Assembly (NCBI GenBank): GCA_024278755.1
Contig: JAJRSO010000019.1
Location: 1-64,000, forward strand
Origin: Calditrichota bacterium
GTDB lineage: Bacteria; Calditrichota; Calditrichia; Calditrichales; Calditrichaceae
Length of the DNA stretch: 64,000 nt
Reading direction: 5' to 3'
Part shown: positions 55,297 to 59,400 of the stretch, piece by piece
Layout: the number at the start of each line of letters is the position of its first letter
Numbering within the stretch: the stretch's first letter is position 1
The notes under the pieces: generated by a model
What the model was told of the DNA's origin: nothing
Seen by the model: only the letters and a program-made list of their open reading frames with translations
Databases searched by the model: none
Translations under genes and position numbers: made by a program

Positions 55297-56064
55297 ATGT
55301 CCGAACAAAAAATAGAACGCCTGCTGCACATTATGAAACGGCTGCGAAAAGACTGCCCCTGGGATGCTGTTCAAACACATGATTCCTTAAAACCCTATCT
55401 TCTCGAGGAAGCGTATGAGGTGCTGGAAACCATTGATGATAAAAACTACGATTTGCTGGCAAAAGAATTAGGAGATTTATTACTGCAAATTGTCTTTCAC
55501 AGCGAATTGGCTTCCGAAGCCGGGCAGTTTACTTTTAATGATGTCATCGATAAAATTTCCCATAAATTAGTCGAACGTCATCCCCATGTGTTCGAAAAAC
55601 AAAAAGCACACTCCGCCGCCGATGTGCAAAGCAATTGGGAGCAATCCAAATTAAAGAGCGAAAACAGAAAATCTCTGCTCGAAGGCCTTCCAAAATCCAT
55701 GCCTGCATTATTAAGCGCTCAAAGGCTTCAGGAAAAGGCCGCCAGCGTTGGGTTTGAATGGGAAGAAATCGAATCCGTTTTTGAAAAAGTACGGGAAGAG
55801 TTGGAAGAATTTCAAGAAGCCTATCATCAGAATGATGCCGCAAAAATCCGGGAAGAATTCGGAGATGTTTTATTTGCCTTGGTCAATCTTGGCCGCTTTT
55901 TAAATGTAAATGCCGAGGACGCCTGCCGCCAAACCAATGCAAAATTTATCCGTCGTTTTCAATACATCGAAAAGAAATACAACGGTAATCCCGGAGCAAT
56001 GAAAAAAGCAAGCCTCGAAGAATTGGATGCCGTTTGGAATGAAGCAAAAAAACAGGGTATTTAA
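55297..56064 (+). CDS. mazG: MazG nucleoside triphosphate pyrophosphohydrolase
   Basis: 255 residues with two MazG domains. 'RLRKDCPWDAVQTHDSLKPYLLEEAYEVLETID' and 'ELGDLLLQIVFHSELA' (first E-x-x-E...D), then 'KVREELEEFQEAYHQ' and 'EFGDVLFALVNLGRF' (second). It hydrolyses (d)NTPs, including (p)ppGpp-related control in E. coli. The ATG at 55297 follows AAGGAAACAAAA; the open frame upstream merely overlaps the FAH gene. It ends with a 1-nt stop/start overlap with the kinase (TAATG). Confidence 0.95.
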   Translation: MSEQKIERLLHIMKRLRKDCPWDAVQTHDSLKPYLLEEAYEVLETIDDKNYDLLAKELGDLLLQIVFHSELASEAGQFTFNDVIDKISHKLVERHPHVFEKQKAHSAADVQSNWEQSKLKSENRKSLLEGLPKSMPALLSAQRLQEKAASVGFEWEEIESVFEKVREELEEFQEAYHQNDAAKIREEFGDVLFALVNLGRFLNVNAEDACRQTNAKFIRRFQYIEKKYNGNPGAMKKASLEELDAVWNEAKKQGI

Positions 56065-57092
56065 TGGACTATTTAGAATTTATAAAAACGTGTGCCGATG
56101 CGGAAGCGCTGGCGCTCAATACGGCTGATTTTTTACAAACACATATCGGGGCAAAAAATTTTGTCTTAATCCGGAATAAACGTTCCATTAACCCGTTCAG
56201 TCTGTTAATTCGTTCGGAAGATACTTTTAATTTTGAGCAATGGAAAAAATCGCTCTCCGGTAAATCCATCTCCCCGCTTGCCGGACAAGCTGTTTTAGAA
56301 CAGGGACTTTACTATTTTTTTCCTGAAGCCGATTACGAAAATGATCCTTTTTGTTTTTTTGTTTTTTTCAGAGAGCCCAATGCCCAAACCCAAAGGATTA
56401 TGAATCAATGGAGTCATGTCACAGCCTTGTTAACCAGGGTAATTTTCCGAACCACTAAAAAAACAGAAATCGAACAAGGAACCCTTGTTTCACAAATTTT
56501 ACACGATATAAACACTCTTATTGCTTTTCAAGAGCCGGAAGCCATCGACCCGGACAGTCACGCACGAATTGAATACCAAAAAAAGGTCAACGAAGACCTG
56601 CTTTTTTATATACGACCATTGGAAATATTGCCATTTAAAGTTTCCGTTGAACAACTCATTGAATCATCTCTGCAATTTACCGAACTGAAGAAAGACAATT
56701 TTTTACTAACGATTTCAGCCGATCCGGCCGAGATTACAATTGATGTTGAATTATTTTCAAAAGCCTTTAATGAAATAATTTTTAACGCTGTCAGGGCAAG
56801 CAAACTTACTTTATCAAAAATTAAAATCACCGTTGAGCTACTTTCATCGGTTTCTCCGTTTGTTTCGTTTAACTGGCTGCAAATTACGGTAACCGATAAC
56901 GGCCCGGGAATTAGCCCAGATTATAGGGAACATATCTATGAACCTTTTTTTACTACACAGAAAGCAGACGGACATAGCGGTTTTGGCTTAACAAATGCCA
57001 AAAAAATCATTACGGCTCTAAACGGATTTTTACAAATAAATTCCGTAAAAGGACAGGGTACGGAAGTTAAAATGTTTCTACCCATATTATGA
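56064..57092 (+). CDS. Sensor histidine kinase, soluble
   Basis: 342 residues. No membrane spans. The N-terminal 130 residues look like a small-molecule sensor of GAF type ('TADFLQTHIGAKNFVLIRNKRSINPFSLLIRSE'). A dimerisation segment contains 'ILHDINTLIAF' with the likely phosphorylated histidine, and the ATP-binding domain has 'NEIIFNAVRAS' (N box), 'TDNGPGIS' (G1) and 'GHSGFGLTNAKKI' (G2). It is encoded directly before its presumed partner, overlapping it by 4 nt. Confidence 0.9.
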   Translation: MDYLEFIKTCADAEALALNTADFLQTHIGAKNFVLIRNKRSINPFSLLIRSEDTFNFEQWKKSLSGKSISPLAGQAVLEQGLYYFFPEADYENDPFCFFVFFREPNAQTQRIMNQWSHVTALLTRVIFRTTKKTEIEQGTLVSQILHDINTLIAFQEPEAIDPDSHARIEYQKKVNEDLLFYIRPLEILPFKVSVEQLIESSLQFTELKKDNFLLTISADPAEITIDVELFSKAFNEIIFNAVRASKLTLSKIKITVELLSSVSPFVSFNWLQITVTDNGPGISPDYREHIYEPFFTTQKADGHSGFGLTNAKKIITALNGFLQINSVKGQGTEVKMFLPIL

Positions 57093-58432
57093 AAAATCAA
57101 AAAATACTCATTATTGAAGATAATATTGTTTGGCAGCAAAGCTTCCGCAAATGGCTGGGTAAAAATTATTTGTACGAATTTGCCGCCGATAAGGAAAAAG
57201 CACAGCAGGTTTTTACCCGTTTTTTACCGGATATTGTTTTGCTCGACCTTGGACTTCCTAAAATTGAGCAGGGATTGGAAGTGCTTGATTTTATAATCAG
57301 CCGAAGAACCGATGCTAAGATTATTGTAATTACCGCCTCGCAGGATCATCAAAATGCGCTGGAAGCTCAAAAACGCGGCGCCTCTTCCTATTTTTTTAAA
57401 AGTGAAAACATTAAAGAAGAGCTTCCCCTTTCCGTCAAACGCGCCTTACAGATGCAAAGCCTGGAACGGGAGAATTTAAGTCTGCGCAAAAAACTTACCG
57501 ACACCCTCTCGTTTGACGGTATTATTTCCGTTAGTAGGCAAATGCAAAACATTTTACGTCTCTCGGAACAAATTCGTAACACAGGTGAACCCGTTTTACT
57601 CACAGGTGAATCCGGCGTCGGAAAAGAGGTTATCGCCCGGCATATCCATAACCGCAGTAAGTTTTCCGATAAACCGTTTATTGCCATTAATGCGGCTGCG
57701 CTTCCCGAGAACCTATTAGAAAACGAATTGTTCGGCCATGAAAAAGGCGCCTATACCGGAGCTCATGAATTAAAAAAGGGACAGTTTGAATTGGTAAACG
57801 GCGGTACTCTGTTTTTAGACGAAATTGGAGAACTTCCTCCAACCATTCAGGCAAAGCTTTTACGTGTTCTTCAGGATAAAACATTTTACCGTCTTGGAGG
57901 AACGAAAGAATTGAAAGCGGCTTTTCGTCTTGTTACAGCTACCAACAGAGATTTAAGTGAAGAAGTGAAACATGGGCGCTTTCGTGAAGATTTATTTTAT
58001 CGTTTAAATGTCATTCCGATGCGCATTCCTCCTTTGCGGGAACGCCCGGACGATATTCCGGCTCTAATCAATTATTTTGCTACACGTTACTGTAGCACAA
58101 ACAATATTTCCCTGCCGCGTATCGAACCTTCCTTAGTGGCCTATTTGTCACGCTTGCAATGGAAAGGTAATGTACGGCAGTTGGAAAATACACTCATCCG
58201 GATGCTGGTTCTCGAGCACAAAACACTTACTATTAAGGATTTGCCGGAGCAAATTATTGAGGAAGAAAACGCCTTCATGCAAAACGCCTTAAGTACAAAA
58301 CTTACCTTAGAAGAAATGACCCGTTTATACGTAAACCTTGTTTATGAACATTCCGGAAAAAATAAAAAAGAAGCCTGTGCTTTTTTGAATATCAATTACC
58401 GCACCCTGCATAGCCGTCTCAAAAAAGAATAA
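57089..58432 (+). CDS. NtrC-family sigma54-dependent response regulator
   Basis: 447 residues. Receiver domain with acid pair 'IIEDN' and phospho-Asp53 in 'VLLDLGLP'. AAA+ core with Walker A 'GESGVGKEVIA', the sigma54-contacting loop 'GAYTGA', Walker B 'LFLDEIGELP' and arginine-finger region 'FREDLFYRLNV'. C-terminal Fis-type HTH 'KNKKEACAFLNINYRTLHSRLK'. It activates sigma54 promoters; the nearest such site is 140 nt after its stop (58570-58585), a likely direct target. Confidence 0.96.
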   Translation: MKNQKILIIEDNIVWQQSFRKWLGKNYLYEFAADKEKAQQVFTRFLPDIVLLDLGLPKIEQGLEVLDFIISRRTDAKIIVITASQDHQNALEAQKRGASSYFFKSENIKEELPLSVKRALQMQSLERENLSLRKKLTDTLSFDGIISVSRQMQNILRLSEQIRNTGEPVLLTGESGVGKEVIARHIHNRSKFSDKPFIAINAAALPENLLENELFGHEKGAYTGAHELKKGQFELVNGGTLFLDEIGELPPTIQAKLLRVLQDKTFYRLGGTKELKAAFRLVTATNRDLSEEVKHGRFREDLFYRLNVIPMRIPPLRERPDDIPALINYFATRYCSTNNISLPRIEPSLVAYLSRLQWKGNVRQLENTLIRMLVLEHKTLTIKDLPEQIIEEENAFMQNALSTKLTLEEMTRLYVNLVYEHSGKNKKEACAFLNINYRTLHSRLKKE

Positions 58433-58569
58433 TTGTAAAAAATACAACCGCCGCTTTTTAATAATTGCATATTCTGCAATCTATCCCTGAGATTACCTTC
58501 TACTTCCTTGTTTTTACTAATCTTATGGCTTTTTACACACAACCTGTTGTTTTTAAAACGTTTATGTGC

Positions 58570-58585
58570 TGGCACAATACTTGTA
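58570..58585 (+). promoter_or_regulatory. Sigma54 (-24/-12) promoter
   Basis: TGGCACAATACTTGTA matches the consensus TGGCAC-N5-TTGCW with exact spacing; only the C of the -12 element is T. It lies 35 nt before the small gene at 58620 and downstream of an NtrC-family activator, which fits target control of the small-protein/receiver unit. Upstream activator binding sites were not identified. Confidence 0.85.
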
Positions 58586-58619
58586 AGAATAAAAATAGTA
58601 ACCAACCAGGAGCGAGCAA

Positions 58620-58835
58620 ATGTCTTTTCAGAATATCCTAAACGGCAATCTTAAAATAACTTCGATGGATGATGAACTCGGAAGAAGATATTACAGCATT
58701 AAGCTAACCTTTTCCGACAATGATGTTTTAGCGGTTTATCGAAATAGTATGGACGAGCTTGTTACAGAACTACCAAACATTCTCTCTTCCGCTATTCAGG
58801 CAAGGATTTTAACGGACGATCGTCTCGTCAATTAA
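58620..58835 (+). CDS. Small hypothetical protein, sigma54-controlled
   Basis: 71 residues, no family recognised. Mixed alpha/beta pattern ('RRYYSIKLTFSDNDVLAVYRNSMDELVTELPNILSSAIQARIL'), no signal or membrane segment. AGGAG with 7-nt spacing precedes the ATG, and the sigma54 promoter lies 35 nt upstream. It is followed 13 nt later by a receiver-domain protein, suggesting a joint role in a response to the kinase/activator pair. Confidence 0.75.
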   Translation: MSFQNILNGNLKITSMDDELGRRYYSIKLTFSDNDVLAVYRNSMDELVTELPNILSSAIQARILTDDRLVN

Positions 58836-58848
58836 TCAGGGAGGAAAG

Positions 58849-59235
58849 ATGAAGATTTTTATCTGCGAACAAGATCCATACCGTGCCAAGCTAATGCATG
58901 ATATTCTCTCTGTTTATAATTACAAAATTGTTACCGTTGGTAGCCGGAGTGATTTTTTCCGCAAAGCACAAACACAAAAACCGGCTATTATCGTTATAAA
59001 CGAAATGTTTGCTCAGCATTCCGGTAATGAAATGCTAAGCCTCATGCGTAAAGATCCGCAAACCGCCGACATTCCGGTCATTTTTATTTACGGCGATACG
59101 CCTGTGGAACAGCAGTTAAACCAATATCAATTTGATAACCTCACCGAAATTGTGCACGAACCGGTTAAAATTAAAAATCTGAGGCATTATATTGATCGTT
59201 GGACAACTTTAAGAAGTTTATATATAAAGCATTAA
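58849..59235 (+). CDS. Receiver-domain protein lacking the phospho-acceptor aspartate
   Basis: 128 residues with response-regulator receiver fold: 'MKIFICEQDPYRAKLMHDIL' (acid pair E7/D9), 'DIPVIFIYGDTP' and a late 'EIVHEPVKIKNLRHYI'. At the phospho-acceptor position the sequence is 'IIVINEMF', with Asn51 in place of Asp. The conserved Lys of the usual K-P motif is Glu ('HEP'). Without these residues it cannot be phosphorylated in the normal way and is probably a constitutive or protein-binding pseudo-receiver. It has no output domain. GGGAGGAAAG precedes the ATG. Confidence 0.88.
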   Translation: MKIFICEQDPYRAKLMHDILSVYNYKIVTVGSRSDFFRKAQTQKPAIIVINEMFAQHSGNEMLSLMRKDPQTADIPVIFIYGDTPVEQQLNQYQFDNLTEIVHEPVKIKNLRHYIDRWTTLRSLYIKH

Positions 59236-59239
59236 AATT

Positions 59240-59332
59240 ATGGAATGGTTATATTTTACAATACAAATACTTCTCGCGGCCCTATGGTTAATATTTAAAG
59301 GAACCAGTATCAAGGATGATGTTTTATTCTAG
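59240..59332 (+). CDS. Possible 30-residue membrane peptide
   Basis: Short ORF of 30 codons (ATG at 59240, TAG at 59330) just after the receiver gene. It encodes one predicted membrane helix ('LYFTIQILLAALWLIF') and a short polar tail ('KGTSIKDD'). It lies in the sigma54 unit and before the terminator. The ribosome-binding site is weak, so it may not be translated; the clean helix is the main support. Confidence 0.35.
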   Translation: MEWLYFTIQILLAALWLIFKGTSIKDDVLF

Positions 59333-59364: not shown

Positions 59365-59400
59365 AAAGGCTTTTCTGTTAAAACAGAAAAGCCTTTTTTT
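59365..59400 (+). terminator. Bidirectional Rho-independent terminator
   Basis: Thirteen-base arms, AAAGGCTTTTCTG and CAGAAAAGCCTTT, around a 6-nt loop, flanked by A- and T-runs. It ends the sigma54 unit and overlaps the end of the convergent nucleotidase-like gene, serving both directions. Confidence 0.9.

Follow-up and report, generated by a model that had tools for sequence, protein, structure and literature searches.

A conserved two-component system and sigma54-type promoter upstream of a stand-alone pseudo-receiver in Calditrichota

The DNA analysed here, a 64,000-nucleotide stretch of a Calditrichota genome (the window), encodes a histidine kinase and an NtrC-type activator followed by a short operon that includes a stand-alone receiver domain devoid of key catalytic residues. 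We propose that the kinase/NtrC pair is probably a dedicated sigma54 switch controlling the amount, not the phosphorylation, of this phospho-dead receiver, which would itself act by protein contact. In such a circuit, the soluble kinase would phosphorylate the activator, and the activator, judging from the conservation of its candidate sites, would bind two palindromes at 58433-58479. From there it would drive RNA polymerase-sigma54 from the promoter at 58570, as suggested by promoter conservation and by the rpoN gene in the genome. The products would be the phospho-dead receiver and, in the home lineage, a partner of 71 residues plus a membrane peptide with one span, the receiver most likely making contacts through its conserved last strand and helix.

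This predicted wiring of the operon is well supported by comparison across genomes, the relatives retrieved being Caldithrix and other Calditrichota. We advance more tentatively, as a possibility somewhat short of even, that the arrangement is a design common to the phylum: a complete two-component system with a stand-alone phospho-dead receiver operon as its one conserved target, in which amount carries the signal and the dead receiver, together with lineage-specific partners, is the effector.

The operon and the two-component genes beside it

Three short open reading frames of unknown role, closed by a strong terminator, had been described downstream of an NtrC-type activator gene, and each of these elements was borne out. 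All three reading frames lie on the forward strand: ORF1 (58620-58835) encodes a 71-residue protein, ORF2 (58849-59235) the 128-residue pseudo-receiver, and ORF3 (59240-59332) a 30-residue single-span membrane peptide with the C-terminus KGTSIKDDVLF. The intrinsic terminator (59365-59396, forward strand) comprises a 14-bp stem followed by a T-run, has a folding z of -5 and separates convergent genes; it sits just beyond the 3' limit of the region first described (58570-59332). In one scan of 17 relatives, the three genes occur in identical order wherever the contig extends far enough, and loci with enough DNA have orthologues of the kinase and activator immediately 5' of the operon. The order kinase-activator-palindromes-promoter-operon is thus retained in Calditrichota relatives with enough upstream DNA. 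The exception is genome G028, where the operon lies away from these genes: at this locus (L053, G028:C249), operon and palindromes are retained, the kinase and activator genes are not adjacent, and the divergent neighbour gene encodes a 929-residue membrane protein.

Two further features were seen 3' of the module. At three loci (L009, L011 and L012), the terminator region 3' of ORF3 is a long inverted repeat, GGCTTTTATATTTTAACCC ... GGGTTAARATATAAAAGCC, which lies between convergent genes and exceeds an ordinary terminator in size. At L113-L118, L059 and L060, which belong to families f4-f6, a cysteine-containing protein of 62-64 residues (MAKKQDFASK...KVCKCNEKEVYA) is conserved 3' of the module.

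The gene 5' of the promoter (57089-58432, forward strand) encodes a protein with a receiver, an AAA+ domain with the GAYTGA loop and a Fis-type helix-turn-helix. The receiver is intact (E10, D11, D53, T82 and K104), and by Pfam the protein classes as an NtrC-type enhancer-binding activator, its HTH_8 match of 19.7 bits falling just below the 22-bit cut-off. The receiver residues and the Fis-type helix are conserved in relatives, most of which carry GAFTGA in the loop. Directly upstream is the gene for a soluble histidine kinase (56064-57092, forward strand; Pfam HATPase_c, E 7e-20) with an atypical H-box, SQILHDI, and the form SQxxHDxxxxI is common to the kinases read. A gene for a mazG-type nucleotide pyrophosphohydrolase (55297-56064, forward strand; Pfam MazG, E 1e-38; start codon chosen by similarity) heads the conserved mazG-kinase-activator cluster, an order found in most relatives with enough upstream DNA.

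The kinases differ in their sensor part. Most of those read in f4-f6 are about 670-680 residues long with 8-9 membrane-like segments, whereas those read in f1-f3 and in genome G031 are soluble and shorter. Comparison of L113, L114, L115, L117 and L118 with the window (56064-57092) sets a multi-span membrane sensor against a soluble one, activator and output being unchanged. Since the sensor part varies between families, the same output appears to be attached to different inputs.

Palindromes and the reach of the activator

The gap between activator and promoter holds two palindromes that are putative activator sites and had gone unmentioned in the preliminary description: palindrome 1 at 58433-58447 (TTGTAAAAAATACAA) and palindrome 2 at 58465-58479 (TTGCATATTCTGCAA), the latter starting 32 bp past the former and lying 90 bp before the -24 box. 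Their consensus is TTGYA-N5-TRCAA, tandem copies are 31-33 bp apart, and where both are intact they stand about 90-105 bp 5' of the -24 box, at enhancer distance. Among those of the 17 relatives that have upstream DNA, all but two have at least one palindrome in this gap, and most have two; none is visible in L012, whose contig begins too late.

A search of the home genome for the tandem pair, allowing three mismatches, returned one perfect match, at this operon, and all other hits carried three mismatches. Because the tandem pair is unique there, the regulator looks dedicated to the pseudo-receiver operon in this genome. Other single palindromes in the home genome were considered as targets and discarded, no convincing paired promoter being found. 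Across the 40 Calditrichota genomes, the pattern palindrome-N78..108-promoter has matches in 25, once in each, and its reversed control has 0 matches. The pseudo-receiver locus accounts for 23 of the 25; of the other two, one marks a second copy of ORF1 (G012:C321) and one lies in an apparent coding sequence (G019:C1). These searches are pattern-based and cover targets of exactly this palindrome-promoter architecture; within that scope, no conserved second target emerged in the phylum. The second ORF1 copy (L065) consists of palindrome, promoter and ORF1 without a pseudo-receiver, and a gene for a secreted-looking protein lies about 110 bp downstream.

The same palindrome occurs shortly before the mazG start in every locus of f2, f4, f5 and f6 with readable upstream DNA; it was not found at this position in f1 and f3, and the site is missing from the window. 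The mazG, kinase and activator genes are closely spaced wherever gene order was read. Together with this palindrome, that makes autoregulation of the operon by its activator probable in most of the phylum, and the activator may accordingly have a second target in those four families.

These observations bear on a different role for the pseudo-receiver, namely feedback, in which it would be a brake or booster, serving as a decoy for or heterodimer partner of the kinase or the activator receiver, with the true targets elsewhere and under a different site architecture. The system that would switch on the pseudo-receiver is indeed the one it resembles, the circuit appears self-wired because the palindrome precedes mazG-kinase-activator in all readable f2, f4, f5 and f6 loci, and a recent review suggests that pseudo-receivers of two-component operons act as heterodimer partners or decoys (PMC12632262). 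We nonetheless hold feedback to be rather unlikely, since the palindrome-plus-promoter pattern gave no conserved second target in the phylum and, by eye, the pseudo-receiver did not look close in sequence to the activator receiver. Control of the amount of a contact-making receiver by a dedicated activator is the reading we prefer.

The pseudo-receiver and its lineage-specific partners

ORF2 is recognised by Pfam Response_reg (PF00072; E 4e-7, 30.5 bits against a cut-off of 30.2), and its AlphaFold model (pLDDT 81) has the fold of an ordinary receiver, with the PhoB and DivK receivers as best matches. A profile of the family finds exactly one copy in 39 of the 40 Calditrichota genomes (E <= 1.8e-34), the sole genome without it being 62% complete. 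The family is absent from about 250 non-Calditrichota genomes, and the next best receiver among the 290 genomes scores 2e-18.

A pseudo-receiver is a receiver that lacks any one of five catalytic residues (D, D, D, T/S and K), as defined in a review (PMC12632262), and the ORF2 family falls under this definition. With the activator's own receiver as reference, 36 of 37 pseudo-receivers no longer have the second metal-binding acid. The phosphorylatable Asp is replaced by Asn in 31 of these 37 copies and by other residues in two; it is kept in four genomes, an apparent Caldithrix abyssi genome among them, so that residual phosphorylation is possible there. The window has Asn51 at this position and belongs to the aspartate-less subset. 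The canonical Lys is Glu104 in the window, and Lys-Pro is replaced by Glu-Pro in every copy aligned, as judged by eye; the automatic alignment misplaces T and K, and both were read by eye from a separate alignment. Without the canonical Lys and a metal-binding acid, and in most copies without the Asp as well, the protein should have an activity that follows the amount made rather than phosphorylation. The best conserved stretch of the protein is C-terminal, EPxKIKNxRHxxxRWxxxRSL, which makes it a likely contact surface.

By contrast with this near-universal receiver, the 71-residue protein is found in 28 of the 40 Calditrichota genomes (and in 0 of 250 non-Calditrichota genomes searched), being absent in f6 and part of f5, so the conserved core is the pseudo-receiver rather than ORF1. 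Where ORF1 is not recognisable, in f6 and several f5 genomes, the promoter runs straight into the pseudo-receiver gene, which points to the pseudo-receiver as the constant output.

ORF1 itself is an orphan that has no Pfam or NCBIfam match and so represents a protein family outside both collections. It is predicted to fold as beta-beta-beta-helix, and its model, of moderate confidence (pLDDT 75), has three strands plus one helix; a Foldseek search with it gave no significant match (best E 0.31). Weak Foldseek matches had raised the idea of half an HPF or a dsRNA-binding-like protein, which profile comparison did not support (hhalign probability 0.2 against the HPF / S30AE ribosome hibernation factors of the same phylum). 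As to likeness with a P56-type DNA mimic, the match to the phage P56 uracil-DNA glycosylase inhibitor profile (E 0.034 over 36 residues) fell short of significance.

ORF3 was seen in three families only, f1-f3, where it is a peptide with a single span and the tail KxxxIKDDxL. Among its single-base codon differences, 61% are synonymous against 21% expected, the pattern of a sequence that evolves as coding. A membrane peptide 3' of the pseudo-receiver in L060 was left out of the count, as it is probably an antisense reading of a convergent gene that is itself conserved.

The conserved C-terminal helix, which resembles a contact surface, would also suit a pseudo-receiver that serves as an accessory of the sigma54 machinery or as an adaptor for degradation or localisation, its complex being anchored in f1-f3 by the membrane peptide with its conserved span and tail. 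One-domain VemR lends this idea a precedent: in Xanthomonas it binds to RpoN2 and governs a sigma54-dependent gene (PMC6637908). The likeness to VemR seen here is that of the receiver fold, however, and ORF3 is missing in f4-f6, and we consider such a role unlikely.

Promoter conservation and comparison with known systems

The sigma54-type promoter occupies 58570-58584 on the forward strand (TGGCACAATACTTGT; TGGCAC-AATAC-TTGT). It had been called near-consensus: the site is present and its -24 box is perfect, but the -12 box reads TTGT and not TTGC as quoted. A genome-wide scan had been suggested as a check; run as TGGCAY-N5-TTGY, it gave 42 matches in the home genome against 48 for the reversed pattern. 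As single matches thus occur at chance level, a lone match proves nothing, and the case is carried by conservation.

We compared 38 loci from several families with the pattern [TCA]GG[CT]-N7-TTG, placed at most 170 bp after the last palindrome. The promoter was present in 37 of them, whereas 500 shuffles averaged 0.9 and never exceeded 5; the remaining locus (L059) has TGGCAC-N5-CTGC, as read by eye. GG and TTG are invariant in all 37 matching promoters, and TGGCA is nearly so. The last base of the -12 box is C in 9, T in 18, A in 9 and G in 1; the lone G comes from L010, for which the search took a chance upstream match instead of the true site, TGGCACGTGCTTTGT. With L059 counted in, just 10 of the 38 promoters keep the -12 C, so the set may have low strength or rely on a variant -12 box. 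Because the loci share ancestry, the shuffle test demonstrates conservation and not independent events; the occurrence in six families, amid divergent surrounding spacer, makes simple shared descent of unselected DNA unlikely.

The preliminary description had staked its proposal on conservation of the promoter in relatives, and that expectation held. Its view that the locus is a compact, sigma54-controlled output of the two-component system next to it also agrees with the promoter, tandem enhancer and gene order conserved through Calditrichota and with rpoN, which is found in the home genome and in 37 of the 40 genomes overall. That expression of the operon comes mostly from read-through or an ordinary sigma70 promoter, the -24/-12 site being fortuitous, is very improbable: the chance-level scan and the non-canonical -12 box would fit it, but GG and TTG are invariant in the loci examined and stand at fixed spacing downstream of the palindromes, which argues against it, as does the empty reversed control.

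Sigma54-like sites also occur in a further region (L020, G000:C51:82500-86885), at position 540 before a DegP/HtrA-type protease gene (TGGCATATTTTTTGT) and at position 2449 before dnaK (TGGCACGTGCCTTGC, 67 bp from the ATG), with one palindrome 215 bp further upstream of the dnaK site. A stress regulon with dnaK and degP was entertained on this basis and kept as a lead only: the palindrome nearby is single and 215 bp away, and chance co-occurrence is not negligible.

In the genome paper of C. abyssi, sigma-54, RpoN and two-component systems go unmentioned, and the locus gives a defined candidate sigma54 regulatory circuit in Calditrichota. Among known systems, VemR, which works with RpoN2 and FleQ in Xanthomonas citri, is likewise a one-domain response regulator tied to sigma54 regulation (PMC6637908), but is co-transcribed with rpoN2 and fleQ. 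PrsK/PrsR of PEP-CTERM systems are among the best NCBIfam matches of the kinase and activator, although the scores (372 against a cut-off of 502.6, and 56 against 300) place neither protein in these families. PEP-CTERM genes of floc-forming bacteria are reported to be RpoN-dependent (PMC9850573), whereas no PEP-CTERM gene was noticed in the target operon here. The pseudo-receiver of FrzS from Myxococcus xanthus has the same fold (Foldseek match 2i6f, E 2.7e-5), with the difference that FrzS has further domains. To our knowledge, FrzS is not a sigma54 target. It acts by protein contact (PMC12632262).

CmrRST of Clostridioides difficile also places a receiver without catalytic residues under an otherwise normal kinase/regulator pair, and it has been proposed in print that this pseudo-receiver is controlled by how strongly it is expressed (PMC12632262). 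CmrT is an OmpR-family regulator (PMC12548384), whereas here the receiver stands alone, under an NtrC-type activator and a sigma54-type promoter and with unrelated partner genes. The same 2025 review discusses 20 characterised atypical regulators, only two of which are not orphans, and calls the on/off switching of pseudo-receivers a mystery (PMC12632262). With a putative regulator and promoter identified and single-copy conservation across the phylum, the pseudo-receiver described here makes the idea of control by amount directly testable and offers a natural test case for how 'dead' receivers are controlled.
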